42,337 bases of DNA, taken from positions 1 through 42,337 of the forward strand of contig JACNJN010000187.1 of NCBI GenBank assembly GCA_014382535.1. Reading direction: 5' to 3'. This stretch comes from Candidatus Desulfolinea nitratireducens (GTDB taxonomy: Bacteria > Chloroflexota > Anaerolineae > Anaerolineales > Villigracilaceae). How positions within the stretch are numbered: position 1 is the first letter of the stretch; each line of letters starts with the position of its first letter. This document shows positions 7,090 to 22,118 of the stretch, in pieces. The translations under genes and the position numbers were made by a program. The notes beneath the pieces were generated by a model. The model worked only from the letters and a program-made list of their open reading frames with translations. It was not told where the DNA came from and ran no database searches.

Positions 7090-7100
7090 AGAGGTGATTT

Positions 7101-7310
7101 ATGAGTGACGAAGTGACTGCGGAACTGAAAGACCAGATTTTTGAGTTTTTCAAGAAAAAAGGGAAGATGATGACCTATCGTGACATAGCCAAAGGTCTTG
7201 GTATTGATAAGAAAATAGCCAAGAAAGCCCTCATTGAATTGGTCAACGCTGAAATATTGGAGTTCACATCTTTTGGTGGAGCTACTTTTATCAAAATCCC
7301 TGACGCATAA
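7101..7310 (+). CDS. dsrD: DsrD, winged-helix activator of DsrAB
   Basis: 69 aa, a little shorter than typical DsrD. The sequence IFEFFKKKGKMMTYRDIAKG, then KIAKKALIELVNAEILEF and a short beta wing (GGATFIKI) give a winged-helix fold. DsrD has been reported to bind and allosterically stimulate DsrAB rather than act as a transcription factor, and it is used as a marker of reductive sulfur metabolism. It lies 11 nt after dsrB with an AGAGGTGA ribosome binding site. Assignment rests on motif, size and position. Confidence 0.9.
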   Translation: MSDEVTAELKDQIFEFFKKKGKMMTYRDIAKGLGIDKKIAKKALIELVNAEILEFTSFGGATFIKIPDA

Positions 7311-7377
7311 ACGTACCAAAGCATTTAAACACACATTACAGGAAAGCTAAAAGCTATTAGGTTTAGGAGGTAGCATT

Positions 7378-7695
7378 ATGCCCATGATTGATTTGGATGG
7401 TGTCCAATTAGAAGTTGACGAAGACGGCTTCATCGAAAATCCTGATGAATGGAGCGAAAAGTTGGCAGCCGCAATTGCCAAGACTGAGGAAGTTGAAGAA
7501 CTTTCTGAAGATCACTGGAAAATTGTCAACTATTTGCGAGATTACTATAAGAAATTTGGTATCGCTCCAATGATTCGTAAGCTTTGCAAGGAGACCGGGT
7601 ACGATCTCAAAACGATCTATGAGATGTTCCCAAGCGGTCCGGCAAAAGGTGCCTGCAAGATCGCAGGTTTGCCCAAACCAACTGGATGTGTCTAG
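7378..7695 (+). CDS. dsrC: DsrC sulfur-carrier protein
   Basis: 105 aa substrate partner of DsrAB. The C-terminal arm GACKIAGLPKPTGCV carries Cys93 and Cys104 at exactly the positions described in Desulfovibrio DsrC, so it should form the trisulfide product that DsrK reduces. The body has the family motifs EDHWKIVNYLRDYY, KKFGIAPMIRKLCKETG and the AGLPKP tail. TAGGAGGTAG lies upstream of the ATG; a second in-frame ATG two codons later is possible. DsrC is normally produced in large excess over DsrAB, which fits the stable hairpin that follows its stop codon. Confidence 0.97.
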   Translation: MPMIDLDGVQLEVDEDGFIENPDEWSEKLAAAIAKTEEVEELSEDHWKIVNYLRDYYKKFGIAPMIRKLCKETGYDLKTIYEMFPSGPAKGACKIAGLPKPTGCV

Positions 7696-7736
7696 TTACT
7701 CTCTGCACAAAACTGTAATATCAAAGTCAAAGTCCA

Positions 7737-7796
7737 GGGATAGGGGGGGAGTAGATGTGCATCAAAAGCCATCTTCTCTATTCTCCACCCCTATCC
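7737..7796 (+). terminator. attenuator or processing hairpin between dsrC and dsrM
   Basis: GGGATAGGGG and CCCCTATCCC pair perfectly over 10 bp, and the adjoining GGAGTAGA and TCTATTCTCC extend the stem imperfectly. The following bases are TTGTCGTTT, a poor but U-leaning tail. Lying in the only longer gap inside the dsr run, it could cause partial termination or protect the dsrC 3' end, raising dsrABDC transcript over dsrMKJ. Confidence 0.55.
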
Positions 7797-7819
7797 CTTG
7801 TCGTTTACGTTGAGGATCT

Positions 7820-8566
7820 ATGAGTACAAGCGATATTTTGTGGACACTGCTTTCGTTATTCTTCATTGGATTGGCATACTTTGCAACATTCGCTTTCGTT
7901 GCAGGTTTGCTATGGAGGCTGTACGGCTACTTGCGTACACCTATGCCATTGCCACATTCGTTGACACCAGCGCCAAAAACAGAAGGGGGCGCCGTTCTGA
8001 GGGTTCTTGGCGATGTAACTCTTTTTCCAAATTTATTCAAAGCTGATAAATGGCTGTGGGCTGGTGCCTGGATTTTTCACGCCGCCTTGGTTTCAGTCCT
8101 GTTTCGTCACCTGCGTTATTTTACCTACCCTGTGCCGGGCATCGTTCTGTATATGGAACCTGTAGCGCTGTTTTTCGGCATCTTGTTTGGGGTTGCGGCC
8201 TTGTTCCTGTTCTGGAGACGATTGGGCTTGCCGCGTACTCTCTATATCTCCAACATTCCCGATTATTTCATCTTGGTGTTGCTTGGACTGGTTGCTGCTA
8301 CAGGACTGATGGTGAGCTACTGGATGCACGTCAATATCGTCGATGTGAAGAGCTTCATTCTGGGATTGATGACATTCCGTCTGGTCGAAGTGCCTCGCCA
8401 TCCCTTATTCCTTTTGCATTTATTCTTTATTCTGGTCCTAATGATTTACTTCCCCTTCAGCAAATTAATGCACGCTGGCGGGATTATCTTCAGCCCGTCA
8501 CGGCATCAACCATTCCAGGTACAGGTACGTGGCAAAAGATACAAGAATCCTGTTGAACGCTACTAA
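7820..8566 (+). CDS. dsrM: DsrM, heme b membrane subunit of the Dsr membrane complex
   Basis: 248 aa, about five to six transmembrane helices, NarI-like. It oxidises menaquinol and passes electrons through two b hemes to DsrK. Probable heme ligands are the histidines in WIFHAALVSVLFRHLRYF and in the C-terminal LLHLFFILVLMIYFPFSKLM followed by HAGG, a segment typical of DsrM. It is shorter than many DsrM proteins (about 330 aa in Desulfovibrio). GAGGATCT precedes the ATG. It forms a unit with dsrK and dsrJ, and a second, more divergent M/K pair lies 10 kb downstream. Confidence 0.92.
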   Translation: MSTSDILWTLLSLFFIGLAYFATFAFVAGLLWRLYGYLRTPMPLPHSLTPAPKTEGGAVLRVLGDVTLFPNLFKADKWLWAGAWIFHAALVSVLFRHLRYFTYPVPGIVLYMEPVALFFGILFGVAALFLFWRRLGLPRTLYISNIPDYFILVLLGLVAATGLMVSYWMHVNIVDVKSFILGLMTFRLVEVPRHPLFLLHLFFILVLMIYFPFSKLMHAGGIIFSPSRHQPFQVQVRGKRYKNPVERY

Positions 8567-8588
8567 GCTACTGGTCTAGAGAAAACCC

Positions 8589-10037
8589 ATGGCAAAATTT
8601 GACGAGACCCCCATCATCAAGGATCCCGCGGTAAAAGGTGAACTTCGTCCGCCCAAGATCCGCGAACACGCTTCTGCGGAAGTGAAATGTCATCCCAGTA
8701 AGCCAAAGGATACAGCAGCGATAAACTTGCCCTCGGAACTTGTACCGGATTGGCAGGAGCGGGCAATTGCCAGATTTGGTGAATTGCTGGATAAAAACCA
8801 GGCTTTGCGTGTGTATATGGATGCCTGCGTGCGTTGTGGGGCCTGCACCGATAAATGCCAATTCTTCCTGGGGACGGGCGACCCTCAGAATTTCCCGGTC
8901 GCCCGTGCAGAACTGATGCGCAAAGTCTATAGACGCTATTTCACACCTGCGGGTCTCGTTCCAGGTCTGGGAGATGCTGCTGATTTCGATGAGGAAATGC
9001 TCCAGAAGTGGTACACCTACTTCTATCAGTGTTCGGAATGCCGGCGTTGCTCGGTCTTCTGCCCTTACGGGATCGATACAGCCGAGATAACGGCAGCAGC
9101 CCGCGAGATCATGGCTTCGATCGGTATCTCCACGAAATATGTCACAGAGGTTGTTGCCAAGGTTTATGAAACGGGTAACAACCTGGGCATCCCTCCCTTA
9201 GCCTGGATCGATAACAGCGAATTTCTCGCAGAAGATATGGAGGAGATAACAGGTTTACCGATCCAGTTCCCGGTGGATGAGGAGGGGGCAGATATTTTAC
9301 TTATTCCCCCTTCCGCAGATAATTTTGCCAATACAGATACGATGATCGGCTATGGCAAATTATTTCACTTTCTCGGAGTCAGTTGGACGACAAGTACATA
9401 CTGCAATGAGGCGGGTAATTTTGGCCTTTTCCTGAATTTTGAAAATCTTCAGAAGGTTAATCAGCGAATGCTTGAAGCTGGTCGACAATTAGGTGCCAAG
9501 ACAATTATCTGGGGGGAATGCGGACATGCCTGGCGAGCTGGAATCCTAACTCCTACTTTAAGTGGGTCAATGGATGACTTTGATCCCCCATATCCTTATC
9601 ATATTAGCCAATATATCGTCGATATGTTTCGCAAGGGAGCCTTTGAAGGGCATATTGATAAATCAGCCAATGATGAATTCCTGGTGACCTACCATGACCC
9701 CTGTAACTCAGCCCGTGCCGGAAATTTGCTCGACGAGCCCCGCGAGATCATTCGCAATACATGTAATCGCTTTGTAGAAATGCCGAGAAATACGATTCGA
9801 GAAAATACATTTTGTTGTGGCGCTGGTGGGGGGTTGTTAACCGACGAGTTGATGCCAATACGAATGGCGGGCGGAAAGCCGCGTGCAGAGGCAGTCAAAT
9901 ATACACAAGCTAACTACCTTGCCACAGTTTGCGCAATTTGCAAAGCACAATTGCCTGAGCTAATGAAGTATTGGGAAGTTCCCGTTCAGGTAGGTGGCGT
10001 AATCGATTTATTAGCAAATTCTCTGAAGCTGAAGTAG
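8589..10037 (+). CDS. dsrK: DsrK, HdrD-like iron-sulfur subunit that reduces the DsrC trisulfide
   Basis: 482 aa cytoplasmic catalytic subunit. An N-terminal extension of ~75 residues is followed by two [4Fe-4S] sites (CVRCGACTDKCQFFLG and CSECRRCSVFCPYGIDT) and two CCG domains binding the non-cubane cluster: WGECGHAWRA, TYHDPCNSARAG, NTFCCGAGGGLLTDE and TVCAICKAQLPELM. This is the standard DsrK layout. The gene lies 22 nt after dsrM. The protein docks on DsrM at the inner membrane and receives its electrons for the DsrC disulfide or trisulfide. Assignment over generic HdrD is supported by the neighbouring dsrC, dsrM and dsrJ. Confidence 0.93.
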   Translation: MAKFDETPIIKDPAVKGELRPPKIREHASAEVKCHPSKPKDTAAINLPSELVPDWQERAIARFGELLDKNQALRVYMDACVRCGACTDKCQFFLGTGDPQNFPVARAELMRKVYRRYFTPAGLVPGLGDAADFDEEMLQKWYTYFYQCSECRRCSVFCPYGIDTAEITAAAREIMASIGISTKYVTEVVAKVYETGNNLGIPPLAWIDNSEFLAEDMEEITGLPIQFPVDEEGADILLIPPSADNFANTDTMIGYGKLFHFLGVSWTTSTYCNEAGNFGLFLNFENLQKVNQRMLEAGRQLGAKTIIWGECGHAWRAGILTPTLSGSMDDFDPPYPYHISQYIVDMFRKGAFEGHIDKSANDEFLVTYHDPCNSARAGNLLDEPREIIRNTCNRFVEMPRNTIRENTFCCGAGGGLLTDELMPIRMAGGKPRAEAVKYTQANYLATVCAICKAQLPELMKYWEVPVQVGGVIDLLANSLKLK

Positions 10038-10046
10038 GAGACACTT

Positions 10047-10349
10047 ATGCGTAAAGTAGCTTTGTCTCTTGTCACACTTGGAATTCTCATCCTCAGCATT
10101 GCCTTTTACCCACAATATGTGGAAAAGCCGGTCAAGGATGGGGAAGGGCCGCTGGCGGTTTATCTTGACCCGAGCCTGCCAGCCCCCGAGTACCATAGCC
10201 CCTTGGACTGGTGGCAAGCCAATCACAAGGATATTGTCAATCGCGGCGATCTGGTTAAGGCCGATTGCCTGCAATGTCATGATCCTGTCACTTCCTGCAA
10301 TAATTGCCATGCCTACGTTGGCGTGGACGCAATCCTCCTGGCACCTTAA
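10047..10349 (+). CDS. dsrJ: DsrJ-like diheme cytochrome c, lacking the third heme
   Basis: 100 aa. An uncleaved N-terminal membrane helix (residues ~5-22) anchors a periplasmic domain with two heme c sites, C74-LQ-C-H78 and C84-NN-C-H88, the second followed by AYVGV as in DsrJ. Canonical DsrJ continues with a third site of the PYCWDCH type at this point; here the chain ends DAILLAP. So this is a shortened DsrJ with two hemes instead of three. It starts 10 nt after dsrK with a TAGGAGA ribosome binding site. The periplasmic electron partner may differ from the canonical one, given the Rieske protein that follows. Confidence 0.8.
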   Translation: MRKVALSLVTLGILILSIAFYPQYVEKPVKDGEGPLAVYLDPSLPAPEYHSPLDWWQANHKDIVNRGDLVKADCLQCHDPVTSCNNCHAYVGVDAILLAP

Positions 10350-10364
10350 CAGGTGAGCGACACT

Positions 10365-10814
10365 ATGAAAACCATACCTGATCCAACGCCTAAACCATCT
10401 GTCTTTACCAGCCGCCGCCAGTTCATTCAGCTTGGACTGGCTACTGTAAGTGCGGCCTGGCTGGGAACCTGGTTGCAGGTGCGCCTGTTTCCTCAGACAA
10501 ATACAATCCAGGAAGCCAAACCAGTCTCGTTCCCGCTGTCCGAACTGCCCGTAGGCGGGACGAAAACCATCACCTATGGTGGTGTGTCAGTTGTGGTCTT
10601 ACGAACAAGGGAAAGCCTGCGGGCGTTTTCGCTGGTTTGTACACACTTGGGATGTCTCGTAGCGTGGGAGAAAGATAAAAAAGAATTCTATTGTCCCTGT
10701 CATGATGGTCGTTTCGATGAATTTGGTGATGTGCTTGCCGGCCCCCCACCCATCCCGTTGGAACAGTTCCCCATAAGCGTCGAAGGCGAGATGGTTACTG
10801 TAGGTGAGATTTGA
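10365..10814 (+). CDS. Tat-exported Rieske [2Fe-2S] protein
   Basis: 149 aa. The N-terminus carries a twin-arginine motif with hydrophobic stretch (TSRRQFIQLGLATVSAAWLG), so the folded cluster protein is exported and stays membrane-anchored. The Rieske ligands are CTHLGC and CPCHDGRFDEFG in the C-terminal beta domain, followed by the GPPPIPL proline loop. I place the start at the ATG preceded by AGGTGA at 8 nt spacing; a GTG 12 nt upstream is the alternative. In bc complexes this protein passes quinol electrons to cytochrome c, but no cytochrome b of a bc1/b6f type is nearby. It lies between dsrJ and a monoheme gene, an unusual context for a Dsr locus. Confidence 0.93.
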   Translation: MKTIPDPTPKPSVFTSRRQFIQLGLATVSAAWLGTWLQVRLFPQTNTIQEAKPVSFPLSELPVGGTKTITYGGVSVVVLRTRESLRAFSLVCTHLGCLVAWEKDKKEFYCPCHDGRFDEFGDVLAGPPPIPLEQFPISVEGEMVTVGEI

Positions 10815-10828
10815 GACCGGAGACTGAA

Positions 10829-11203
10829 ATGAAACGAATCTTGATTCTTCTTGGCTCATTGCTTCTTGTCATAGAGTTGTTTATGGTGTTGTTCCTTGTC
10901 TCAACGGTGCAGGCTTTGCCAGAATACTCTGCACAAACAGGTGAACCGTGTTTCAGTTGTCACGTCAGCCCTTCAGGTGGTGGCCCGCGCGGGCCGCGTG
11001 GACAGGCTTGGGTGGCCTCCGAAAAACCTGGCTACGTACCGGATACGCTGCAGGCACTGGAGTTGCTGGGCGTCGAATTGACGGTAGATCCGGCCTATTT
11101 CACGGTAACAGACCTCGAGGTCCAAAAAGCCGAAGCGCTCAAGACTATTTCCGAGCATGGACAGCCTCTATACCGTTGGTTAAGTGGATACGATGGAAAT
11201 TAG
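10829..11203 (+). CDS. exported monoheme c-type cytochrome-like protein
   Basis: 124 aa. Signal peptide of ~29 residues, with probable cleavage after STVQA. A single heme site C41-FS-C-H45 is followed by VSPSGGGPRGPRG, a glycine-rich loop resembling the CxxCHxxPxGGG motif of some respiratory cytochromes. The rest (to residue 124) has no second heme and no obvious domain. The ATG at 10829 has GGAG just upstream; a TTG further up is less likely. It lies directly after the Rieske gene and before the MopB subunit, so it may carry electrons between them in the periplasm. Confidence 0.7.
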   Translation: MKRILILLGSLLLVIELFMVLFLVSTVQALPEYSAQTGEPCFSCHVSPSGGGPRGPRGQAWVASEKPGYVPDTLQALELLGVELTVDPAYFTVTDLEVQKAEALKTISEHGQPLYRWLSGYDGN

Positions 11204-11236
11204 TCTACATCCGTTGATTGGTAAAGGATAGCCTGC

Positions 11237-13606
11237 ATGGAAAATTCCCAATCCCAGACCCAGAAATCAAAATTATCCCGCCGAGATTTCCTTAAGATCG
11301 GGGCCGCAACTGTAGTCGCTGGTGCGGGTGTTAGTGTCGTGCAATCTGCTAAAAAGCCAGTTGTTACTCAGAGTGGTTCTTTGGAAGAAGCCATTATCAA
11401 AACGACCTGTGCGCTATGCCCCTCAGGCTGCGGATTGGACGTACGTGTAGTGAATGGTAAAGCCGTGAAAGTTGAAGGCAACCCGCTACATCCGCTCAAT
11501 CAGGGTGTCTGTTGTCTAAAAGGGCAAACTGCCTTGGAAGTGCTCTATAGCCCGGAACGAATCAAACATCCGCGCATCCAGACCGGTGCGCGTGGCTCAG
11601 GTGATTGGAAAGAAATCTCCTGGGATGAGGCGCTTGACTTGGTAGTGGATAAGCTTGCGGAATTACGCGAGGACGGGAAATCGCACAGTGTGGCACTTAT
11701 GCACGGAGAACTACGCGGACAGATGCGTCAGGTGGTCAACCGTTTCATGCGTGCTTATGGCTCACCAAATGTGATCTCGCGCGAAAGCCTGGGGGAGGGC
11801 ACTGCCCGCCTGGCAATGTGGCTTTCGCAGGGTGTGAACACGATCCCGGTTTATGACATCAATAATGCCAATTATGTACTCACCTTTGGTGGAAACCTGC
11901 TCGAATCCAGTCGTAACCTGATCGGCTATTTGAGCGCTACAGCCTTTATGCGCCGCGGACGCCCACAGCGCGGCAAGTTGGTGGCAGTTCACCCGCGCCT
12001 TTCGTTGACTGGTATCAAGGCCGACGAATGGGTGCCGATCCGGCCCGGCACATATGGCGCTCTGGCCTTGGGCATGGCGAGTGTCATCATCAACAGCAAG
12101 TTGTACGATGAAGATTTTGTGCGCGATTTTACCTATGGCTTCGAAGACTTCGAAGATGCAGAAAGTAATTCGCATCAAGGCTTCAAGTCTCTGGTGCTCG
12201 AATCCTACACGCTTGACAGAGTTTCAGCCATCACGGGGGTGCCAACAGATGTCATCGCCCGCGTGGCAGGCGAGTTTGCAACCAACCGGCCTGCTGTGGC
12301 TGTATTGCCCACCGAACCGGGCGAGCTCTCGAGCGGCAATGCACTCCATACTGCGCTGGCGGTACATGCGCTGAATGCGCTGGTTGGTTCGATTGATGCG
12401 CAGGGTGGCGTCATCCTTCAGCGCTTCCCGGAATTGACTGAGTGGCCTGCCTACGCCCTCGACAGCGATGCCAGAAAGGGTGAAAAGCAGGAACGCCTTG
12501 ACGGGGCTGGTACACAATTCCCTTTGGCGATTTCAGCTTACCAGAACGTACCGGAAAGAATCCTAAAGGGAAAGCCTTATCCAATTGAAGCGCTTTTCCT
12601 GCTGAACGACAACCCGGTTTACGATGTGCCCAACGGCGGGCAGAGTGTGGAAGCGCTGATGAAGGTACCCTTCGTGGTTAGTTTTGCTTCCACCTTGGAT
12701 GAAAGCGCCGCGCACGCTGATTTAATCCTGCCTGCCAGCACTTTTATGGAAGTTTGGGGTGATGATTATCTGGAAGGCACGGGTTACCCCGGTATTTCCC
12801 TGCGCCGTCCAGTGGTTGAGCCTGTTCACGACACGCGTGCTCCCGGGGATGTGCTGCTTGATTTGGCACAACGTTTGGGGGGATCTGTAGGAAAGGCCTT
12901 CCCTTGGAACTCCTATAAGGAACTGATCGAAGACCGTCTCTCCACGCTGGATTGGGAGAAGCTGGAGGCCAATGGAAATTGGTCTGAATTGGTGTACTTC
13001 AACGCGGAACCTGGCAGCCCAGCCTGGAATGATGTGGTCGGACGTGACCGCCTGAACGCGCCCAAAGATGGACGCTTCGACTTCTTCTCCCGTGAACTCT
13101 TTGCCACGCTCGCCCCGGACTCCGATTTATCTTGCTTGCCACACTTCGAGATTCCCACCACCCTGACAGACAGTACCGCAGATTCCATCGAATACCCATT
13201 CCTGCTAGTCACGCAGCCGCTGATCACGCAATCCCAGCAGTGGCAGGGCATTGTCCCAACTTTGCAGGAGAGTTACGGCCTGCAAGGAAACGTCAAATGG
13301 GATAGCTGGGTGGAGGTTAGTCAGAAAGCTGCCGAAGCCTTGCATTTAGAAGACGGGGAACGCGTCTGGGTGGAATCGCCGATTAATCGGGTGCAAGCCA
13401 CGGTCCGCGTATATGCGGGCATTTGGCCGAACGCGGTCTACCTGCCGCCCGGGCAGGGACATCATACCTTTGTACGTTGGGGTCGCAAATCCAAAGAAAA
13501 TTCTATTGTTGGGGCTAACCCCAATATGCTAACTAAGTTTGATAGCGAACCGCTGACGGGTCTGGCTGTTGCCGGCCCTGCCCGCGTCCGAATTTATCCG
13601 GTTTGA
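11237..13606 (+). CDS. Tat-exported molybdopterin-oxidoreductase-fold (MopB) subunit
   Basis: 789 aa. Twin-arginine signal (SRRDFLKIGAATVVAGAG, residues 14-31), then a CxxCxxxC...C cluster site formed by C58, C61, C65 and C92 or C93, the molybdopterin-binding domain, and the C-terminal MopB dinucleotide domain (WVEVSQKAAEALHLEDGERVW region). It resembles PsrA/PhsA/TtrA and also ActB or QrcB. The region where Psr/Phs/Ttr enzymes have the Mo-ligating Cys reads VISRESLGEG (179-188), with no cysteine. It may bind Mo by another ligand, or be a redox-inactive scaffold as in alternative complex III and Qrc. Next genes encode matching FeS and NrfD subunits, so it is the periplasmic part of a three-subunit quinone-linked complex. 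Confidence 0.85.
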   Translation: MENSQSQTQKSKLSRRDFLKIGAATVVAGAGVSVVQSAKKPVVTQSGSLEEAIIKTTCALCPSGCGLDVRVVNGKAVKVEGNPLHPLNQGVCCLKGQTALEVLYSPERIKHPRIQTGARGSGDWKEISWDEALDLVVDKLAELREDGKSHSVALMHGELRGQMRQVVNRFMRAYGSPNVISRESLGEGTARLAMWLSQGVNTIPVYDINNANYVLTFGGNLLESSRNLIGYLSATAFMRRGRPQRGKLVAVHPRLSLTGIKADEWVPIRPGTYGALALGMASVIINSKLYDEDFVRDFTYGFEDFEDAESNSHQGFKSLVLESYTLDRVSAITGVPTDVIARVAGEFATNRPAVAVLPTEPGELSSGNALHTALAVHALNALVGSIDAQGGVILQRFPELTEWPAYALDSDARKGEKQERLDGAGTQFPLAISAYQNVPERILKGKPYPIEALFLLNDNPVYDVPNGGQSVEALMKVPFVVSFASTLDESAAHADLILPASTFMEVWGDDYLEGTGYPGISLRRPVVEPVHDTRAPGDVLLDLAQRLGGSVGKAFPWNSYKELIEDRLSTLDWEKLEANGNWSELVYFNAEPGSPAWNDVVGRDRLNAPKDGRFDFFSRELFATLAPDSDLSCLPHFEIPTTLTDSTADSIEYPFLLVTQPLITQSQQWQGIVPTLQESYGLQGNVKWDSWVEVSQKAAEALHLEDGERVWVESPINRVQATVRVYAGIWPNAVYLPPGQGHHTFVRWGRKSKENSIVGANPNMLTKFDSEPLTGLAVAGPARVRIYPV

Positions 13607-13632
13607 GTGGAACTTTATTCTGGAGGTAGCAC

Positions 13633-14319
13633 ATGCTCCGTTGGGGAATGGTAATTGATCTCGATAAATGCTTTGCCTGCCAGAGCTGCACCGCAGCCTG
13701 TCGCATGGAAAACAATACGCCTGTCGCCGGTAAAGATCAGGCCGATATGGGACGCGCTATCCTGTGGAACGAGGTATTACCTTTTGTGGAAGGTGAGTAT
13801 CCGAACGTGCATACTACGATCTTGCCGCGTCCCTGTATGCACTGTGATGAGCCAAGCTGTGTGAAAGTCTGTCCGGTGCAGGCGACCTTTATGAACGAAG
13901 AGGGCACTGTGCTGGTGAATTATGACCGCTGTATCGGCTGTCGTATGTGCACGGTGGCCTGCCCATATGCTGTGCGTTATTTTAACTGGTATGCCCCAGA
14001 ATGGCCGGATGCACTAAAGGAACATTTGAATCCTGATCCTGAAGTGGCGCCGCGTCCCAAAGGTGTGGTCGAAAAATGTACATTCTGTGTACAGCGCCTG
14101 CGTAAGGCGCGCGAAGAAGCCGAGGCTGAAGGCCGTACCTTCAACGCAACGGACTACACTCCGGCCTGCGTGGAAACCTGTACAGGACGAGCCCGCTACT
14201 TTGGCGACCTGAATGACCCCAACAGCCTGGTGTCCAAGCTGTCGCACAGCCCGCGTGCCTTCCGGATGTTCGAAGAATTGGGGACTCATCCGAAGGTCTA
14301 TTACTTAAAACAAGGGTGA
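13633..14319 (+). CDS. four-[4Fe-4S] ferredoxin subunit (PsrB/NrfC/DsrO type)
   Basis: 228 aa electron-transfer subunit. Four cysteine groups are visible: C13/16/19/23 (CFACQSCTAAC), CMHCDEPSCVKVC, CIGCRMCTVAC and the later CTFC with ACVETC, the arrangement of PsrB, NrfC and DsrO. It has no signal peptide of its own, so it is presumably exported together with the Tat-tagged MopB subunit, unlike DsrO which carries its own Tat signal. TGGAGG precedes the ATG, and the stop overlaps the NrfD start. It wires the MopB subunit to the membrane quinone site. Confidence 0.93.
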   Translation: MLRWGMVIDLDKCFACQSCTAACRMENNTPVAGKDQADMGRAILWNEVLPFVEGEYPNVHTTILPRPCMHCDEPSCVKVCPVQATFMNEEGTVLVNYDRCIGCRMCTVACPYAVRYFNWYAPEWPDALKEHLNPDPEVAPRPKGVVEKCTFCVQRLRKAREEAEAEGRTFNATDYTPACVETCTGRARYFGDLNDPNSLVSKLSHSPRAFRMFEELGTHPKVYYLKQG

Positions 14320-15662
14320 TGGCAATGGAACCAAAGAATCAACACACACAAACGATCCTTGCTCCCATACGAAAAGTTTCCAAAGGAGACTACCTTCTAT
14401 GGGGCGCGTTAACTGCGTTGCTGCTATCTGGTCTGGTTGCATGGATCTGGCAATATATTGAAGGTCTTGGCATTACAGGGATGAATCGTCCGGTTTACTG
14501 GGGCGTGTACATCACCAATTTTGTTTTCTTCATTGGCCTGGCACACTCAGGCACTTTTATCTCGGCCATCCTGCGCATAGCTGGTCAGAGTTGGCGTGCC
14601 CCGCTGACCCGCGCTGCTGAAGCGATCACGCTTTTCAGCCTGCCTTTCGGCGCCGGCTCAATCATCATCGATATGGGCCGCCCAGAACGATTACTCAATC
14701 TTGTGTTTTACGGCCGTTATCAATCACCGATCTTGTGGGATGTCACTGCTGTCAGTCTTTACTTGCTTTCCAGCGTTGTCTTTTTCTATCTTTCGCTACT
14801 TCCGGACATTGCCATGTGCCGCGACCGCTTGACGAATGTCCCGCATTGGCAGCACCGTATGTACGAGATCCTTGCCTTGGGATGGAACCATGATTCTGAA
14901 CAGTACCACCGACTTGAGAAGGTGCTGGATGGTATGGCTGTTTTCATGACCATGCTAGTTGTCACAGTACACACTGTCGTTTCTTGGCTCTTTGGCATGA
15001 CGGTACAACCTGGCTGGCATACGGCTTTAATCGGGCCGTTCTTCCTTCTCGGCGCAATCCTTTCTGGAACGGCAGCAGTTGTCATTGTTCTGGCGCTGTT
15101 GCGTAAAGCCTATCGCTTGGAAAAAGTTTTGCATAATGGGCTCTTCAATTCACTGCGCAAACTTTTGATCACCTTTGTCCTCGGATGGCTGTATATGATG
15201 ATTGCTGAATACCTGACCATTGGCTACAGCAATATGACCGAGGAGATGGTCGTCCTGACCGATAAATTCAGCGGTACTTATGCGACGATGTTTTGGAGCA
15301 TGACCGTTTTCGTGTTTGTTATTCCCTTGCTAATCTTTATCTTCAAAGGCAAGAACAGTGTCGGCTGGATGGTGTTTGCATCCGTACTGATCAATATCGG
15401 TATGTGGATGGAACGCTATATCGTCATCATCCCGACCGAGATTAGCCCGCGTATGTTGCACGTAATGGGGCAGGGAAGTTACCTGCCTGCCTTGCCCGAG
15501 ATACTGATCACGATAGCCTGTTTTGCTGGATTGATTCTGCTGTATGCGGTTTTCACTCGTTTCTTTCCGATTATCCCTATTTGGGAAACAGCAGAGGAAC
15601 TCCCCGGTCACGCCCATTCCACGAAAACGTCGCCAGCGCCCAGCTCGGCATCTAGCGATTAA
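14319..15662 (+). CDS. NrfD/PsrC-type quinone-interacting membrane subunit
   Basis: 447 aa, about ten transmembrane helices. Segments such as MNRPVYWGVYITNFVFFIGL with AHSGTFISAILR and IDMGRPERLLNLVFYGRYQSPI are typical of long NrfD proteins, and the first resembles ActC of alternative complex III and QrcD. It exchanges electrons between the (mena)quinone pool and the ferredoxin subunit and may take part in proton movement. It starts at the ATG of the TGATG overlap with the FeS gene. The Ala/Ser/Thr-rich C-terminal tail is cytoplasmic. It may take the place of DsrP, which belongs to the same family. Confidence 0.92.
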   Translation: MAMEPKNQHTQTILAPIRKVSKGDYLLWGALTALLLSGLVAWIWQYIEGLGITGMNRPVYWGVYITNFVFFIGLAHSGTFISAILRIAGQSWRAPLTRAAEAITLFSLPFGAGSIIIDMGRPERLLNLVFYGRYQSPILWDVTAVSLYLLSSVVFFYLSLLPDIAMCRDRLTNVPHWQHRMYEILALGWNHDSEQYHRLEKVLDGMAVFMTMLVVTVHTVVSWLFGMTVQPGWHTALIGPFFLLGAILSGTAAVVIVLALLRKAYRLEKVLHNGLFNSLRKLLITFVLGWLYMMIAEYLTIGYSNMTEEMVVLTDKFSGTYATMFWSMTVFVFVIPLLIFIFKGKNSVGWMVFASVLINIGMWMERYIVIIPTEISPRMLHVMGQGSYLPALPEILITIACFAGLILLYAVFTRFFPIIPIWETAEELPGHAHSTKTSPAPSSASSD

Positions 15663-15680
15663 CGCACTCAGGAGCTTTAC

Positions 15681-15863
15681 ATGGATATTGGCGCTTTAGT
15701 TCACGCATTTTTCGATAACGCTGGTCCTGGTAGCGTTCTTTTCATCTTGATAGTTGGTGGTGCCTGCATTTTTTATTATTTTCTAACTCGCTGGATCGTA
15801 GCGACTGAAAAACGGGATGAACCGACTACTCCAGAAGAACAACCGGAGAGCATGGACGCATGA
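15681..15863 (+). CDS. 60-aa single-helix membrane protein
   Basis: One transmembrane helix (residues ~18-36, SVLFILIVGGACIFYYFLT) with a charged, Glu/Pro-rich cytoplasmic tail (EKRDEPTTPEEQPE). AGGAGC precedes the ATG, and the stop overlaps the next gene by 4 bp (ATGA). Size and form resemble small accessory subunits of respiratory complexes such as CcoQ, but no family is recognised. Its position suggests a structural role in the MopB/NrfD complex. Confidence 0.7.
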   Translation: MDIGALVHAFFDNAGPGSVLFILIVGGACIFYYFLTRWIVATEKRDEPTTPEEQPESMDA

Positions 15864-17956
15864 AACGACGAATCTTGATTCCCACTCTGATCTTTCTCGC
15901 AGTATTGACGCTGGCTGCCTCTTCAGCTTCCTCCTCTTCCCGCACCCATGGCTTGCCAGCCGGAACCGAAGGACAAACCCTTGTCTCCGGCAATTACTGT
16001 ATTTCTTGTCACCTGGCGGATGACCAGCGTCTCACCACCGTCACCGAATGGAAAGGTGGTATTGGCCGCGAAGTCAACAGCCCTTGCCCGGCAGCAACAG
16101 TCATCCATGAAGAGTTGTACTACACCGAACGATTGCTGCTCATGATCGACCGTGCTCAGGAGGCAGTCGGTACTCTGCCTAAAAAAACGCAATCCCGTTT
16201 GGATAACTATACTCAGCGCTACAGCCGTATGCTGGATACCCCTGTCACCAGCCTAGATGCCTTTGTCAGCGAGGCACAGACCACACGTTATCAGATGAAC
16301 AAAGCTTATGCCGTCTTGAACCAGATGGCGGAAGCTGCAAAACAACGCACGGTGCTTCTCTATGCTGCTATTGTCACGTTGATTCTGCTCGGCTCACTAG
16401 CCTGGGGCCTCTACAACACACATGCTGTTCGTGCGGGGACAGTTAGTAAATCTTGGGCCACATTTTGGCGAGTTGTGCTTGTATTGGCTGTGCTAATCTT
16501 CTTTGCCCTGCCTATTTTCCGCATACCAGAGGTTGAGGTGATGGAAACCACAGAAGAGCAGCAGGACGCGCAAGCCACGCTTGACGTTGCCCAGCGAGCG
16601 GCCAATGCCGCTGACCGTGCTCAAGCACGCGCTTGGATGCTGGCTCGTGTGGGAACGGCTTGGAGTCAATTGGATACCGCAGAGGCAGAGACTCTGCTGG
16701 AAGAATCCCTTCTAGCTCTGGAAATAGCCCGAAAAAATGGAACAGCACTTTGGGGACAGAGTTTGATGGTGCAAGAGGCCACGGCTGGGCAAAAAGTAGA
16801 GATGGAAGCAGCTGATCTGATTGCCGCTGATTTGAATGCCGCTCGTGGTCGAACCTGGGCTTTGCCGCTTATTGCCCTAGAATGGAATGAAATTGATTTA
16901 GGGCGTGCAGTTTCGATTTTGAATGCGGAGCAGGAAAATCTTGAAAGTCAGCAAGGTCTCTATCGCGATTTGCAATTACGCGGACTGGCTTTGGCCTGGG
17001 CAAAAGTAGATTCGGCTAGGGCTGCTCCAACCGCCGCACAAATTGACGATCCAGCACTACGCACTTGGACCTACCGCGAACTGGCAGCTCTTACTAACAA
17101 TCAAACCCTCTTTGGCCATGCCGCTGAAGCAGCCCGTGAAATCGAAGACCCCGTTCAACGTGCGTATTCTCTGCGTGAAATTGGCCTGGCTTCTGGTCAG
17201 AACGCTCTATTCGACGAAGCCCTTGCTGCACTTAATTCTGTAAAAGGTGCGGCGCTTGCCTATGCTTTGAGCGATCTTGCTGTCTCTTCTGGCGATACAA
17301 CGCTGATTGAGAAGATTGATCTTGCGTATCCCGATGCGCGTGTCAGCGCACTACTTCGTCTGGGAGAATACAGTTCTGCCTTGGAGACCGCCGCAGATAT
17401 TGCTGATCCCTATGAGCAAGCTCGTGCCCAGGCTACCATCGCTGTAGCTTGGAAAAATGCAGACGTCGCTGTCCGGGCGGCGAAGTCGCTATATCGCGAC
17501 CTGGCCTTGCGTGATGTTATCCGAAAAACGGGAGATGCAGCATTGGTCGACTCCATTTCATCCACTTACTATAAAGTTCAGGCACTGACCGCGCTCGATG
17601 AATACGAAGCCGCAAGCCAGATGGCTGGCAATCTGGGCGATTCCTATCCGCTGGTTGAATTGGCTCTAGCTATGGCGGATCAAGACCCGCAGGCTGCATT
17701 AGCCTTGATCGATGAAATGAGCCGTGAAGCGGACAAGGCCATCGTCTTACGTGCTGTAACTGCGGCCTCGCACGATAAGGAACTGATTGAACGAGCGCAA
17801 GGCATGGCACTGGCCGCACGTGTACGCGGTGACTCACTTGCTCCAATCCAGGCCTTGCTTGATTTGGCAGATGCGCTTTGGGCGTTGGACACAACCAGTG
17901 CAGAAGCCGTTCTTGTCCAGGCTTGCGAAGCAACGCAACTGATTTCTACAAAATAA
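15860..17956 (+). CDS. monoheme membrane protein with a long alpha-helical repeat domain, novel
   Basis: 698 aa. Signal peptide to about residue 25; one heme c site C47-IS-C-H51; a helical region to ~160 with a conserved-looking CPAATVIHEELYYTE stretch; two transmembrane helices at ~164-186 and ~202-221; and a C-terminal ~470-residue Ala-rich domain of about a dozen TPR-like helical repeats, each with an A-x-A-R-(A/S)-x-x-L consensus. With the signal and two helices, the heme domain and the repeat domain should both face the periplasm. I know no characterised protein with this layout. Coupling to the small membrane protein and NrfD gene suggests that it is a subunit or assembly scaffold of that complex. 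The function is open. Confidence 0.7.
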   Translation: MKRRILIPTLIFLAVLTLAASSASSSSRTHGLPAGTEGQTLVSGNYCISCHLADDQRLTTVTEWKGGIGREVNSPCPAATVIHEELYYTERLLLMIDRAQEAVGTLPKKTQSRLDNYTQRYSRMLDTPVTSLDAFVSEAQTTRYQMNKAYAVLNQMAEAAKQRTVLLYAAIVTLILLGSLAWGLYNTHAVRAGTVSKSWATFWRVVLVLAVLIFFALPIFRIPEVEVMETTEEQQDAQATLDVAQRAANAADRAQARAWMLARVGTAWSQLDTAEAETLLEESLLALEIARKNGTALWGQSLMVQEATAGQKVEMEAADLIAADLNAARGRTWALPLIALEWNEIDLGRAVSILNAEQENLESQQGLYRDLQLRGLALAWAKVDSARAAPTAAQIDDPALRTWTYRELAALTNNQTLFGHAAEAAREIEDPVQRAYSLREIGLASGQNALFDEALAALNSVKGAALAYALSDLAVSSGDTTLIEKIDLAYPDARVSALLRLGEYSSALETAADIADPYEQARAQATIAVAWKNADVAVRAAKSLYRDLALRDVIRKTGDAALVDSISSTYYKVQALTALDEYEAASQMAGNLGDSYPLVELALAMADQDPQAALALIDEMSREADKAIVLRAVTAASHDKELIERAQGMALAARVRGDSLAPIQALLDLADALWALDTTSAEAVLVQACEATQLISTK

Positions 17957-17987
17957 ACGAACAACTCCAATAAGGAACCTGAACACA

Positions 17988-18629
17988 ATGGACAGTATCG
18001 CAATCACTCGCATTATTGCAATCGTCGGTTTGGCACTTTGTTTGCTGGGGATACTCCTGCGACTCAAAACCATTATGAACCGGCCCTTCAAAAAGGACTT
18101 GTCACGTGAGCGTGGCTTGACGGGGCGAGGCCTTTTGTTTGCCTTCACACTGGGGATGGCCCCTTGGGAGAAGGAATCCACGCGTATCCACTGGATATCC
18201 TATATGCGCGGCATCTTCTTCCATGTCGGGATATTCACAGCATTCGGAGTGCTGTTGGTTAGCCCCTGGCTGGAAATCTTACCGAATTGGCTCATCTGGT
18301 TGGGGGTAGTAATTACAGGGTTTGGCGCACTCTTCGGGTTTGCTGGCATTTTCATGCGCCTTTCGGGACCTAACGAGCGCGTCTTAAGTGTCCCGGATGA
18401 TTATGTCTCGGTCTTTCTCTCATCGTTTTTTATTGCATTGGGGTTTGCGACCCTGCTTTGGCCCTCGGCTCTACCCGTTTTCTATGTAGTGACGGGGATT
18501 GTGGGCGTCTACATCCCACTCGGTAAAATCCGCCACTGCGTTTACTTCTTCTTCTCAAAATTCTTTTTCGGAAAGGGTTTTGGACACCGGGGTGTGATTG
18601 GACAATCAAAAGGAAAATACGCGGAATAG
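17988..18629 (+). CDS. second DsrM/NarI-like heme b membrane subunit
   Basis: 213 aa, about five helices. Probable heme-ligating histidines are in RIHWISYMRGIFFHVGIF and GKIRHCVYFFFSKF. It is smaller than and clearly divergent from the DsrM at 7820 and, like TmcC or HdrE, pairs with the HdrD/DsrK-type protein that follows 9 nt later. It should carry electrons between menaquinone and that cytoplasmic Fe-S protein. AAGGAACC precedes the ATG. The natural partner and substrate of this second module are unknown; the DsrE-like protein and the ferredoxin next door are candidates. Confidence 0.8.
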   Translation: MDSIAITRIIAIVGLALCLLGILLRLKTIMNRPFKKDLSRERGLTGRGLLFAFTLGMAPWEKESTRIHWISYMRGIFFHVGIFTAFGVLLVSPWLEILPNWLIWLGVVITGFGALFGFAGIFMRLSGPNERVLSVPDDYVSVFLSSFFIALGFATLLWPSALPVFYVVTGIVGVYIPLGKIRHCVYFFFSKFFFGKGFGHRGVIGQSKGKYAE

Positions 18630-18638
18630 AGGTATAGC

Positions 18639-20003
18639 ATGACCAACGAAAAATTCACTGACAAACGCTTCAATCTTACGGACGAAAAAAAATCTCTCGC
18701 TATAGACGTTTTGCGTCAGCGCCTAAACCGCCAACTGGAAGCCTCGTTGGAAGTGTGTGTGCGCTGCGGCGTCTGTGCCGATTCTTGCCATTATTATGTT
18801 TCGAATCCCAAACCGGAGCATGTTCCAGCGTATCGCGCCGAACAGCTGAGAAAAGTTTATCGCAAGCTCTTTGATCCAGTAGGCAAAGCAGCTCCCGGCT
18901 GGGTAGGCGCCGCAGAACTTGATCAGGAAATGGTCGACGAGTTGATTATGACAGCTTTTGGTTCCTGCACCATGTGCGGACGTTGCGTCATCAACTGCCC
19001 GATGGGTGTGGACACGCGTCACATTGTTCGCACCGCCCGCGCCATGCTGACGGCCATTGATATGACGCCCGGGGGACTCAAAGCTACGGTTAACGTCCAC
19101 CTCGAAAAAGGCAACAACATGGGCGTCAACGAAGAAGACTATGTTGAAACCGTTGAGTGGATGTTAGAGGAACTCCAGGCTGAACTGGGTGATCCTAGTA
19201 TAACCATCCCATTTAACAAAAAAAATGCGCGTGTGGTTTATACCTTCAATCCGCGCGAGATTAAGTATTTCCCCTATCTCATCCAGGCCGCGGCCAAGAT
19301 TTTTAACGCCGCAGGTGAAGATTGGACTCTTAGCACTGAAAGCTGGGATGCCACCAACTATGGCCTATTCTCAGGTGATGATGCTGCCGCTGCCCAGATG
19401 GCTAGCAACCTGGAGGGGGCAGTCAATCATCTGGGTGCTGAAACGCTGGTTATGGCTGAATGCGGACATGGTTACCGTTCTCAACGTTGGGAGGCCGAAA
19501 ACTGGATTGGACATAGCTACCCCTTTGAAGTTATCAGTTTTGTTGAACTCCAGGCGCAGTATATTAAAGAAGGTCGCTTGAAGCTTGATCCAACGCGCAA
19601 CCAGAAGCGGGTTACCTTTCACGATCCCTGTAACCAGGCGCGCAATGGCGGCATTGTGGATGAGCCGCGTTATATCCTGCGTAATGTGGTCACAGACTTT
19701 GTCGAGATGACGCCGCATGGTGTAGAAAACTACTGTTGCGGCGGCGGTGGCGGGATGCTCTCCATGACCGAATTTTCCAATGCTCGTAAAGAGGCTGGGA
19801 AAGCCAAAGCCGACCAGATTTCAGCGACAGGTGCGGAGATCGTTGCCACCTCCTGCCATAACTGTCTCGACCAATTGGATGAGATCAAGCGCCATTACAA
19901 GCTCAAGGTCAAGATCCAAAACTTGAGCGAATTGGTTGCCAACGCAATTGTATGGCCGACCCCTCCGGAAGCCGAAGAAGAAAAAACTGAAGAAAAAGAA
20001 TAA
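18639..20003 (+). CDS. second DsrK/HdrD-like iron-sulfur protein
   Basis: 454 aa. Two [4Fe-4S] sites (CVRCGVCADSCHYYV and CTMCGRCVINCPMGVDT) precede two CCG domains (AECGHGYRSQRW, FHDPCNQARNGG, YCCGGGGGMLS, TSCHNCLDQLDEI), so the non-cubane disulfide-reducing site looks intact. The C-terminus is a run of Glu and Lys. It lacks the ~60-residue N-terminal extension of the DsrK at 8589. As a DsrK paralogue it may reduce the DsrC trisulfide, another thiol carrier, or the partner proteins encoded immediately downstream (DsrE-like, ferredoxin). TmcB-like is another possible label. Confidence 0.85.
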   Translation: MTNEKFTDKRFNLTDEKKSLAIDVLRQRLNRQLEASLEVCVRCGVCADSCHYYVSNPKPEHVPAYRAEQLRKVYRKLFDPVGKAAPGWVGAAELDQEMVDELIMTAFGSCTMCGRCVINCPMGVDTRHIVRTARAMLTAIDMTPGGLKATVNVHLEKGNNMGVNEEDYVETVEWMLEELQAELGDPSITIPFNKKNARVVYTFNPREIKYFPYLIQAAAKIFNAAGEDWTLSTESWDATNYGLFSGDDAAAAQMASNLEGAVNHLGAETLVMAECGHGYRSQRWEAENWIGHSYPFEVISFVELQAQYIKEGRLKLDPTRNQKRVTFHDPCNQARNGGIVDEPRYILRNVVTDFVEMTPHGVENYCCGGGGGMLSMTEFSNARKEAGKAKADQISATGAEIVATSCHNCLDQLDEIKRHYKLKVKIQNLSELVANAIVWPTPPEAEEEKTEEKE

Positions 20004-20026
20004 AGAAGAAAATCAGGAGATAATTA

Positions 20027-20410
20027 ATGTCAGCAGAATATGCAGGCAAAAAAGTTTTGATTGTCGCAACATTTGGTTCTGATAACCCCGAGCGCTGTCC
20101 GGGCCCGTTCGTATTTGCTGGGGAAGCGGTGAAAGCTGGTGCAGAAGCTGAGATACACTTTGTGTTGCAAGCGCCGAAGATTTTGAAAGAGGGCGTTGCG
20201 GAAGCTTTGCATTCCAAGGAAGGCGGACGGACAATCCGTGAATTCATCGATGATGCGTTGGCTCTGGGTGTCAAGTTCTTTGTCTGTGACACAGCCCTCG
20301 CGCTCTGTGATATGACCTCGGAGGATCTCATTGAAGAGATCGAGACTTTGGTGGGACCCAGTTTTTTGATTAAACGAGGATTCGAGTCTGATCTGTCATT
20401 TACATTCTAA
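20027..20410 (+). CDS. DsrE-family sulfur-relay-like protein
   Basis: 127 aa with the DsrE/DsrF-like alpha/beta fold: KKVLIVATFGSDNPERC at the first strand, then the typical FFVCDTALALCDM with cysteines in the position of the DsrE active-site Cys. DsrE-like proteins bind persulfide sulfur and relay it to DsrC or TusE-type carriers. This one is a lone homologue rather than the DsrEFH heterohexamer of sulfur oxidisers, so it is not evidence for oxidative metabolism. CAGGAGA precedes the ATG. Adjacent to a DsrK paralogue, it may be that protein's sulfur-carrying substrate. Confidence 0.75.
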   Translation: MSAEYAGKKVLIVATFGSDNPERCPGPFVFAGEAVKAGAEAEIHFVLQAPKILKEGVAEALHSKEGGRTIREFIDDALALGVKFFVCDTALALCDMTSEDLIEEIETLVGPSFLIKRGFESDLSFTF

Positions 20411-20435
20411 AAATATTGTTTTATCTGGAGGCACC

Positions 20436-20636
20436 ATGTTCATTGTAGAAATCGATATTGAGAAATGCGAAGCTTGCGGCGACTGCGTTGAGAACTGCCC
20501 TGAGCAGATGATCGCAATGGTTGAAGAAGACGGTAAAAAATACGCCATGTTTACAGGTGACCCTGATGTTTGCAGTGGGTGCTTATCCTGTGAGGCCTCC
20601 TGCGAGAAAGATGCAGTAACGGTTACAGAATACTAA
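20436..20636 (+). CDS. 2[4Fe-4S] ferredoxin
   Basis: 66 aa. Two complete cluster motifs, CEACGDCVENCPEQM and CSGCLSCEASCEKDAV, with acidic surface residues. A small cytoplasmic electron carrier that could feed DsrAB or the DsrK paralogue upstream. CTGGAGG precedes the ATG. It lies 25 nt after the DsrE-like gene. Confidence 0.92.
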   Translation: MFIVEIDIEKCEACGDCVENCPEQMIAMVEEDGKKYAMFTGDPDVCSGCLSCEASCEKDAVTVTEY

Positions 20637-20687
20637 ATTCATTCAGTATTCCACCTGTAGAGGGTGGTAGCCTGATATAGATATTTG

Positions 20688-22118
20688 ATGTCTAACCAAG
20701 AATGCCTTGCGCCTCGCTTAGTTATTGCGGCCCCTCAGGGGCAAAGCGGGAAAACTACAGTAACACTGGGGCTGTGTGCGGCATTTAAGGCACGTAATCT
20801 TATTGTACAACCTTACAAAAAGGGGCCTGATTATATTGATCCATCCTGGTTGAGTGAGGCAGCCGGAAACCCCTGCCGTACTCTGGATCCGTTTTTCTAT
20901 GAGCAGCCCGAAGCACTTCTTCGGGCCTTTGTGTACTCTGTAGGCGGGGCGGATATCAGCCTGATTGAAGGCAATCACGGTCTATTTGATTCTTTCGATG
21001 AAATGGGAGAGTTCAGCACGGCCGCAGTTGCTCGTACATTGGATGCGCCCATCCTGCTAGTGGTTAGCGCAACACGGATTGGGCGCAGTGTGGCCGCAAT
21101 CGTACATGGTTGCCAGACCTTCGAGCCGGGCACAAATATTGCGGGTGTTGTACTCAACAATGTTGCCCGCAGCCGCCATGAAGCACGCTTACGTCAGGCG
21201 ATTGAAAATCATTGTGACATCCCAGTAGTTGGCGCGATACCTAGAAATAAAAGTTTAACCATTCCGGATCGTCATCTAGGATTAATCCCACGTGCGGAGG
21301 AAGATGCGAATCTCTCCGCCATCATGGCTTGCCAGCAGACCATTGAACATTACCTTGACTTAGACACAGTTCTGGATATTGCCCGTACCGCTCCTGCCAT
21401 TTCCGTGCCAGACCAGAATCAAGCTGCAGATCAGGTTACCCAATCCCCGCACGTCAAGATTGGGGTTTTGCGAGACAGAGCTTTTACTTTCTATTATCCT
21501 GCCAGTCTAGAAGCGTTGGAAGACGCAGACGCTGACCTAGTCTTCATCAATGCCTTGCATGACACAGACATGCCCTTGATAGATGCTCTCTACATTGGCG
21601 GTGGTTTCCCTGAGATATTCATGGATGAATTATCTGCAAATGTTCATCTTCGTACGGCAATCCGCCAGGCAATTGAAGACGACCTGCCTGTCTACGCGGA
21701 ATGTGGCGGATTGATGTACCTCTCTCAGCGTATCATTTGGGGTGAAAAATCTGCTGAGATGGTCGGTGCGTTGCCTTGCGAGATCGAGATGACTGACAAA
21801 CCCCAGGGGCATGGCTACGTAATTGCACAAGTTGAAAACGAGAACCCCTTCTTCCCCTCTGGTACGAGCCTGCGTGGACATGAGTTCCATAATTCGCGCT
21901 TGGTTTCGATGTCTGTCAACGGTAGCAAAAGCTCTCTTTCTACTGTATATGGCTTATCACGGGGGAATGGTCTCGGGAATGGCCGAGATGGAATCACTTA
22001 TCGAAATGTGCTGGCGGCTTACACTCACTTGCACAGTGGTGGAGCACCAAACTGGGCAAAGGGCTTGGTAGATAGAGCCCGAACTTATCGTGAGTCTCGT
22101 CAGGGGCGGGTAACTTAA
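20688..22118 (+). CDS. dsrN: DsrN/CbiA-type siroheme (cobyrinate-like) amidase
   Basis: 476 aa glutamine-dependent amidotransferase. The N-terminal P-loop is APQGQSGKTTVTLGLC, then PYKKGPDYIDPSWL, both typical of CbiA/CobB, and the C-terminal class I glutaminase has catalytic Cys339 in YAECGGLMYL. In dsr operons this homologue is DsrN, which amidates siroheme to the siroamide form used by DsrAB; cobyrinate a,c-diamide synthase is the alternative. No other cobalamin gene is close, and dsrAB lies in the same run, so DsrN is favoured. The ribosome binding site is weak. The stop overlaps the hemA start by one base. Confidence 0.85.
   Translation: MSNQECLAPRLVIAAPQGQSGKTTVTLGLCAAFKARNLIVQPYKKGPDYIDPSWLSEAAGNPCRTLDPFFYEQPEALLRAFVYSVGGADISLIEGNHGLFDSFDEMGEFSTAAVARTLDAPILLVVSATRIGRSVAAIVHGCQTFEPGTNIAGVVLNNVARSRHEARLRQAIENHCDIPVVGAIPRNKSLTIPDRHLGLIPRAEEDANLSAIMACQQTIEHYLDLDTVLDIARTAPAISVPDQNQAADQVTQSPHVKIGVLRDRAFTFYYPASLEALEDADADLVFINALHDTDMPLIDALYIGGGFPEIFMDELSANVHLRTAIRQAIEDDLPVYAECGGLMYLSQRIIWGEKSAEMVGALPCEIEMTDKPQGHGYVIAQVENENPFFPSGTSLRGHEFHNSRLVSMSVNGSKSSLSTVYGLSRGNGLGNGRDGITYRNVLAAYTHLHSGGAPNWAKGLVDRARTYRESRQGRVT

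Follow-up and report, generated by a model that had tools for sequence, protein, structure and literature searches.

We analysed a 42,337-nt window that is one contig (C208) of the draft genome of Candidatus Desulfolinea nitratireducens (G000; 3.65 Mb, 97.9% complete), the closest named relatives being metagenome-assembled genomes of Anaerolineales/Chloroflexota. Its dissimilatory sulfite reductase (dsr) operon carries, in the place of dsrO and dsrP behind dsrM, dsrK and a dsrJ-like gene, a set encoding a MopB protein, an iron-sulfur (FeS) protein and an NrfD membrane protein. With a probability of roughly 0.6, we propose that in dsr-bearing Anaerolineae this set of alternative complex III (ACIII)/Qrc type, joined by a Rieske and two single-heme proteins, takes over from DsrOP the half of the DsrMKJ system that faces the quinone and the periplasm. 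The operon is tight (positions 3640–22118, all genes on the + strand), its widest gap being the 124 nt between dsrC and dsrM. In the part from 7820 to 20003, the widest gap is 33 nt, between the monoheme protein mH and MopB, and genes overlap at three junctions. The initial annotation had listed here dsrM, dsrK, dsrJ, Rieske, mH, MopB, FeS, NrfD, a small membrane protein, a heme/repeat protein (HemeRep) and a second dsrMK-like pair, all in one direction with gaps below 40 nt, and every one of these genes is present. Their products may form the single quinone-linked supercomplex that the initial annotation inferred.

The two proteins in the DsrOP place were compared with their possible counterparts. 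The NrfD protein (14316–15662, +) has matches to the ActC subunits of four PDB sequences of ACIII, at E 1e-54 or better and about 220 bits (6lod_C, E 8.2e-64), and a weak one to ActF, while the DsrP family model gives 108.9 bits (cut-off 350) and the QrcD model 32.6 bits (cut-off 570). A tree was built from 84 of 88 NrfD sequences (two short and two over-extended ones left out), with ACIII rows labelled from gene content. Its dsr-linked members make up two clades, A (with the window's protein) and B, each next to NrfD proteins from MopB sets without dsr genes. Both clades share one large section of the tree with ACIII; DsrP and DsrP-like proteins group apart (100/100). An assignment of the window's NrfD as DsrP was therefore rejected on both score and tree. 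The FeS protein (13633–14319, +; 16 Cys, four clusters) scores higher with QrcC (264.7 bits, cut-off 400) than with DsrO (185.5 bits, cut-off 200) and passes neither, and its reading frame begins without a twin-arginine translocation (Tat) signal, so that no Tat-exported DsrO stands beside DsrMK. The view that this pair occupies the DsrOP place as part of a MopB set was thus borne out.

Next, the distribution of the set was assessed in a class sample of 396 Anaerolineae genomes and in a named-genome scan that holds partly the same organisms. MopB matches at E 1e-60 were found in 95 of the 396 genomes, 17 of which have a protein with at least 55% identity, hereafter the subgroup. DsrB is present in 16 genomes and DsrP in 10, and no genome of the 396 carries both (DsrP at E 1e-40). 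Subgroup MopB and DsrB occur together in 15 genomes, DsrB alone in one (G150), MopB alone in two and neither in 378 (Fisher p 4e-24, kinship among genomes not corrected for). In the MopB-only genomes, dsrK-J-Rieske adjoin on the contig (G177) or the contig ends inside MopB (G149). Altogether, 12 of the 17 subgroup genes share a contig with dsr genes, four are contig-end cases (G131, G137, G143 and G149) and one is truly split from them (G251). Similarly, the named genomes hold subgroup MopB (52–81% identity) at 23 of 56 loci, of which 17 have dsr genes alongside, two start with a dsr-type Rieske, three lie at a contig end and one is split; BLAST detected dsrA, B, C, M or J at none of the 33 other named MopB loci. 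Except in G251, the visible stretches keep the order DsrM-K-J-Rieske-mH-MopB-FeS-NrfD-HemeRep, with M2/K2, the DsrE-like gene and the small membrane protein varying. The same ordered gene set, when sought elsewhere, thus recurs in many genomes, which indicates that the arrangement is not due to chance.

The absence of dsrO and dsrP from the rest of the genome, on which the initial annotation depended, held in part. A DsrP search of the window's genome gave no match at E 1e-40, while one protein passes the DsrO cut-off (210.6 bits), and it neighbours the genome's one further NrfD (PF03916) on contig C219. That NrfD scores 222.6 bits with QrcD, 174.2 with HmcC and 59.8 with DsrP (cut-off 350). 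The pair (L016, 7661–12674) is surrounded by multiheme cytochromes, a LysR regulator and a two-component system rather than dsr genes, and the whole looks like a quinone-to-multiheme-cytochrome module as judged from its gene content. As a displaced DsrOP it was rejected for its QrcD/HmcC-like NrfD and its lack of dsr neighbours. The DsrP cut-off is itself reached in ten genomes of the class that carry no DsrB, so that a pass alone is no proof of a Dsr complex; in the four such loci looked at (L179–L182), the passing NrfD stands with a DsrO-like FeS protein and MopB, and L180 also has two four-CxxCH proteins.

MopB (11237–13606, +; PF00384, PF04879, TAT_signal) is predicted to be Tat-exported. 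The [4Fe-4S] cysteines near its N-terminus do not vary among the subgroup sequences compared (12 of 15 were aligned; the HemeRep alignment holds 16 of 17 and a third alignment, A3, 34 of 56), and the Cys at what we take to be the Mo-ligand position of PsrA and ArrA is absent from all 19 subgroup proteins, the window's included. An assignment as polysulfide, thiosulfate or arsenate reductase was rejected for lack of this Cys. A broader alternative, that MopB/FeS/NrfD is an independent polysulfide/thiosulfate-type reductase merely co-transcribed with dsr genes, would fit the best MopB scores, which are with PhsA and ArrA-like models, and the ArrA/PsrA fold; the missing ligand in 19 of 19 proteins and the company of DsrB in 15 of 17 subgroup genomes argue against it, and we give it very little credence. 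In the proposed replacement of DsrOP, MopB would instead be a non-catalytic scaffold or electron relay like QrcB and ActB. The description of the set as a Qrc/ACIII hybrid fits in that the FeS protein is nearest QrcC, NrfD is nearest ActC and MopB is without Mo ligand.

The quinone subunit has a history of its own. A MopB tree was made of the window, 20 named subgroup loci (all 23 but L095, L104 and L122) and eight outsiders, with NrfD type assigned by 65% identity to the window's NrfD. On it, type A is scattered with at least three changes, and a single type A clade is rejected (approximately unbiased test, p-AU 5e-9). Judging from these sequences, the scattering indicates that NrfD was swapped or differentially retained while MopB stayed constant, a wording that covers both gain and loss. 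The type changes at window positions 14316–15863 mostly go with the small protein (15681–15863, +), which has one hydrophobic stretch and is found mostly beside the same NrfD type.

Outside the class, a DsrB search in the phylum found seven positives among 400 genomes, five of them outside Anaerolineae. In G481 and G488, DsrO (285.0 and 302.9 bits) and DsrP (478.5 and 395.5 bits) follow DsrMK, all over their cut-offs; in G559 the stretch contains a DsrMK-like pair without OP, and in G516 it is cut. The fifth genome, G426, which shares its class with G481 and G488, carries dsrAB-C-M-K followed by a two-CxxCH protein, a Rieske, a PetB-like (PF00033, 180.5 bits) and a PetD-like protein (PF00032, 78.4 bits; L202, 7705–19900). 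Downstream of these lie a heme protein and a repeat protein akin to HemeRep (26 and 30% identity), M2 and K2. The Rieske tree puts its Rieske with those of dsr operons (98/97), though its branch is long and few other Rieskes were compared. A second such case was found in none of the 29 genomes of its class.

Both bc-type and ACIII-like sets thus occur in the DsrOP place, which is our best argument that this place serves electron transfer between quinol and the periplasm; bc-type complexes, like ACIII, carry electrons from quinol to periplasmic cytochrome. DsrMKJ therefore seems to accept interchangeable quinone modules, namely DsrOP, bc-type and ACIII/Qrc-like ones. A more tentative extension, possible though in our estimate somewhat doubtful, is that DsrMKJ is a socket, and that the Rieske outlived a lost cytochrome b and now serves the MopB/NrfD module.

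In the mechanism that we envisage for the replacement of DsrOP, menaquinol would be oxidised at the periplasmic side by NrfD/FeS, and electrons would pass through the FeS clusters to the MopB [4Fe-4S] cluster and onward to the Rieske, the heme proteins and the DsrJ-like protein with its two hemes. They would then cross the membrane via the DsrM b hemes to DsrK, which would reduce the DsrC trisulfide produced by DsrAB from sulfite. With protons released outside and electrons ending inside, sulfite respiration would conserve energy. NrfD subunits are quinone-binding (PMC8076601, as far as covered), and ACIII moves electrons from quinol to periplasmic cytochrome, opposite to Qrc (PMC13059093, in the parts covered). 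The opposite flow was also considered, in which MopB/FeS/NrfD reduces menaquinone with electrons that periplasmic donors deliver through the Rieske and heme proteins, and DsrMK uses the menaquinol, in a loop through the pool that needs no contact between the two. Such a loop would suit the FeS protein nearest QrcC, the split in G251, and a MopB without Mo ligand, QrcB being described as cofactor-free (in passages of PMC6303296); as the operon has no QrcA-type multiheme cytochrome, NrfD is ActC-like with only 32.6 bits for QrcD, and the bc-type substitute of G426 belongs to quinol oxidisers, we regard it as rather unlikely.

Sulfite respiration is probably the function of the operon, a reading from gene content, because dsrD is present and AprA passes its cut-off in none of the 17 genomes, with weaker full-length matches in two. 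The short dsrD (7101–7310, +; 69 aa; PF08679, 25.0 bits, cut-off 24.2), a marker of reductive Dsr, sits between dsrB and dsrC and had gone unmentioned in the initial annotation. Its presence speaks against an oxidative use, in which sulfide or sulfane sulfur would be oxidised through DsrC/DsrK and nitrate or oxygen would receive the electrons via DsrM/J and the complex-III-like module, and a reductive pathway has been inferred for Chloroflexota with DsrD and without DsrL (PMC10591310, parts covered). For the oxidative direction speak the DsrE-like gene within the operon, the statement in covered parts of PMC10504309 that Chloroflexi Dsr sets are chimeric, with some DsrMK/DsrN next to oxidative types, and contig C94 (L017, 3123–12751), which holds respiratory nitrate-reductase-like genes, with PF14711 in the beta-like protein, and two major facilitator superfamily transporters. 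On balance, we consider this direction quite improbable.

Several observations weigh against the replacement of DsrOP by the MopB set. First, in G251, a single-contig genome (85% complete), 1.9 Mb separate dsrABC-MKJ from mH-MopB-FeS-NrfD-HemeRep and neither has a Rieske match nearby; a fixed complex is therefore not required. Second, G150 (L171) has divergent DsrAB (DsrB 382.9 bits) and DsrC-M-K-J-like genes with neither OP nor subgroup MopB beside them, which means that DsrMKJ may work alone. Third, the bc-type substitute is known here from G426 only, and the DsrO-like protein on C219 does pass the DsrO cut-off (212.4 bits in a second scoring). Fourth, the Mo-ligand Cys is also gone in 10 of 15 aligned non-dsr MopB relatives (retained in L115, L116, L118, L131 and L143), so that losing it is no peculiarity of dsr operons. 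Fifth, the best MopB model score is PhsA (324.6 bits) rather than QrcB (293.7 bits, cut-off 440), and its best alignments are ArrA and PsrA, not ActB: the AlphaFold model (predicted local distance difference test, pLDDT, 88.9) aligns to ArrA with Z 41.1 (root-mean-square deviation, rmsd, 3.0; 713 aligned), to PsrA with Z 37.8 (rmsd 2.6; 681) and to ActB with Z 31.5 (rmsd 3.1; 586), the ActB chains ranking fifth and lower in this second structural comparison. Sixth, the genome has five Rieske genes, one adjoining a PF00033 cytochrome b gene, and the MopB set is therefore probably not the cell's sole quinol-oxidising system. Finally, the electron direction from quinol to DsrC is one that we infer.

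As for the Dsr core, curated cut-offs are passed by DsrA, DsrB, DsrC and DsrK and not by DsrM. DsrM (7820–8566, +; PF02665) is short and reaches 139.6 bits with NF038037 (cut-off 300), covering model positions 110–291 of 320; DsrK (8589–10037, +) reaches 514.8 bits with NF045796 (cut-off 400). The gene named dsrJ (10047–10349, +) deserves that name by place and distant kinship, a profile comparison with DsrJ giving a probability of 96.8 over 46 columns, and no further: against NCBIfam it gave no match at E 0.01, although a DsrJ model (NF038038) exists and matches the DsrJ of L205 at 157.5 bits. It has two CxxCH instead of three, as do all 18 DsrJ-like relatives listed, whereas the DsrJ proteins of L185, L186 and L205 have three CxxCH and a further upstream Cys invariant among those three. 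The second DsrMK pair was likewise upheld in part, K2 having DsrK-like scores that are not Dsr-specific. K2 (18639–20003, +), an FeS protein, scores 330.8 bits with HmcF, 306.3 with DsrK and 298.3 with TmcB, each under cut-off, and M2 (17988–18629, +), a membrane protein, matches only TmcC (NF045723, 23.7 bits, cut-off 240); by sequence, the pair is Hmc/Tmc/Dsr-like without clear assignment.

A Pfam search gave no match for mH, the DsrJ-like protein or HemeRep. mH (10811–11203, +) has a single CxxCH, as do its counterparts at the subgroup loci; those of the listed non-dsr sets have two, the second domain being a CBB3-type cytochrome in the one set examined. HemeRep (15860–17956, +) combines one CxxCH, whose C47, C50 and H51 are invariant in 16 sequences, with hydrophobic helices and a modelled helical solenoid; a fold search with the model found just helical repeats at low TM-scores. 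The Rieske protein (10353–10814, +; PF00355, 53.9 bits; CTHLGC...CPCH) has, by reading, a twin-arginine N-terminus. The Rieske tree consists of 22 sequences trimmed to the surroundings of the motif. Long branches meet in it, and L102, L173, L209 (the Rieske next to the cytochrome b of the cell itself) and L210 are absent because the pattern gave no row for them; L055 has no match to the pattern in the motif listing. The window's Rieske may be a remnant of, or shared with, a bc-type module.

The remaining operon genes, all on the + strand, frame this region. A putative exporter of YeiH type (3640–4728; PF03601, 145.1 bits) comes first in the cluster and precedes dsrA in many relatives as well, followed by DsrA (4766–6031; TIGR02064, 566.9 bits, cut-off 392.85), DsrB (6031–7089; TIGR02066, 510.4 bits, cut-off 341.5) and, after dsrD, DsrC with both C-terminal cysteines (7378–7695; TIGR03342, 125.1 bits, cut-off 53.5). 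Behind K2 lie a DsrE-like protein (20027–20410; PF13686, 29.3 bits, cut-off 25), a two-cluster ferredoxin (20436–20636; PF12838, 37.4 bits) and a CbiA/CobB-type amidase, DsrN-like by place (20685–22118; TIGR00379, 458.6 bits). Promoter and terminator scans gave 17 hits against 20.6 in shuffles and 15 against 19.7, respectively, and are uninformative on internal stops. Besides, the window holds two glutamyl-tRNA reductase genes (22118–23407 and 36370–37707; PF05201, PF00745), and two FGE-sulfatase proteins (PF03781; 1455–2450 and 28444–29295) flank the dsr region.

The route of electrons linking DsrC with the quinone pool and the periplasm is a central open point of sulfite/sulfate respiration, where opinions differ on what DsrJOP does. 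DsrP is absent from all 16 class genomes with DsrB, and an ACIII/Qrc-like set in its slot, or a bc-type set in the related G426, provides natural replacements to compare; the slot content suggests quinol-periplasm electron transfer as the purpose of the slot, and that the sulfite pathway can be membrane-wired in several ways. This may also explain why DsrMKJOP of Chloroflexota can look incomplete. If the socket reading is true, DsrC-trisulfide reduction would be run by a complex-III-like machine, possibly proton-translocating. In the open-access literature, subscription papers and preprints being outside the search, we came across no description of a dsr operon with a MopB/FeS/NrfD set. PMC10504309 treats dsr neighbourhoods and, in the parts covered, does not name a MopB-type operon. 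A bc-type swap for DsrOP is already in print for Electryoneota (PMC10439189).

Compared with known systems, the window operon shares with DsrMKJOP a DsrK over cut-off, DsrM, a DsrJ-like protein and an operon with dsrABDC and a DsrN-like gene, and differs in being without DsrO/DsrP, in its two-heme-motif DsrJ-like protein and in the added MopB, Rieske and two monoheme proteins. In cable bacteria, according to passages of PMC13047784, dsrTMKJ is separate from dsrOP homologues. With Qrc (QrcABCD) it shares the set of MopB-like, QrcC-like FeS and NrfD proteins, whereas the operon has no hexaheme QrcA, its NrfD is not QrcD, and the QrcB, QrcC and QrcD scores are all under their cut-offs (293.7/440, 264.7/400 and 32.6/570 bits). 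The catalytic complex iron-sulfur molybdoenzyme reductases (Phs/Psr/Arr) differ from the window's MopB, which is without the Cys Mo ligand. ACIII (ActABCDEF) likewise has an ActC-type NrfD, a MopB without Mo ligand, an FeS subunit and monoheme proteins. In the window, by contrast, MopB and FeS are separate genes instead of a fused ActB, MopB is nearer PhsA/QrcB/ArrA, a Rieske is present, and the operon has no second NrfD of the ActF kind, the genome's other NrfD being QrcD/HmcC-like; no multiheme ActA was seen among the operon proteins, the rest of the genome not having been searched for it. The non-dsr mH-MopB-FeS-NrfD sets of other Anaerolineae are paralogous (MopB 38–50% identical) and differ in an mH with two CxxCH, in having no dsr genes and, in the three sets looked at, in a four-CxxCH protein upstream. 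Lastly, in Tariuqbacter (Electryoneota) petBCD replaces dsrOP and two dsrK copies are present, and two other Electryoneota metagenome-assembled genomes have cytochrome b6f in place of dsrJOP (PMC10439189, parts covered). The operon of G426 looks like one of this kind. With the Electryoneota petBCD operons, as far as that source covers them, the window shares the missing DsrOP, the Rieske and a second dsrK, while the place of their cytochrome b and subunit IV is taken here by MopB/FeS/NrfD.

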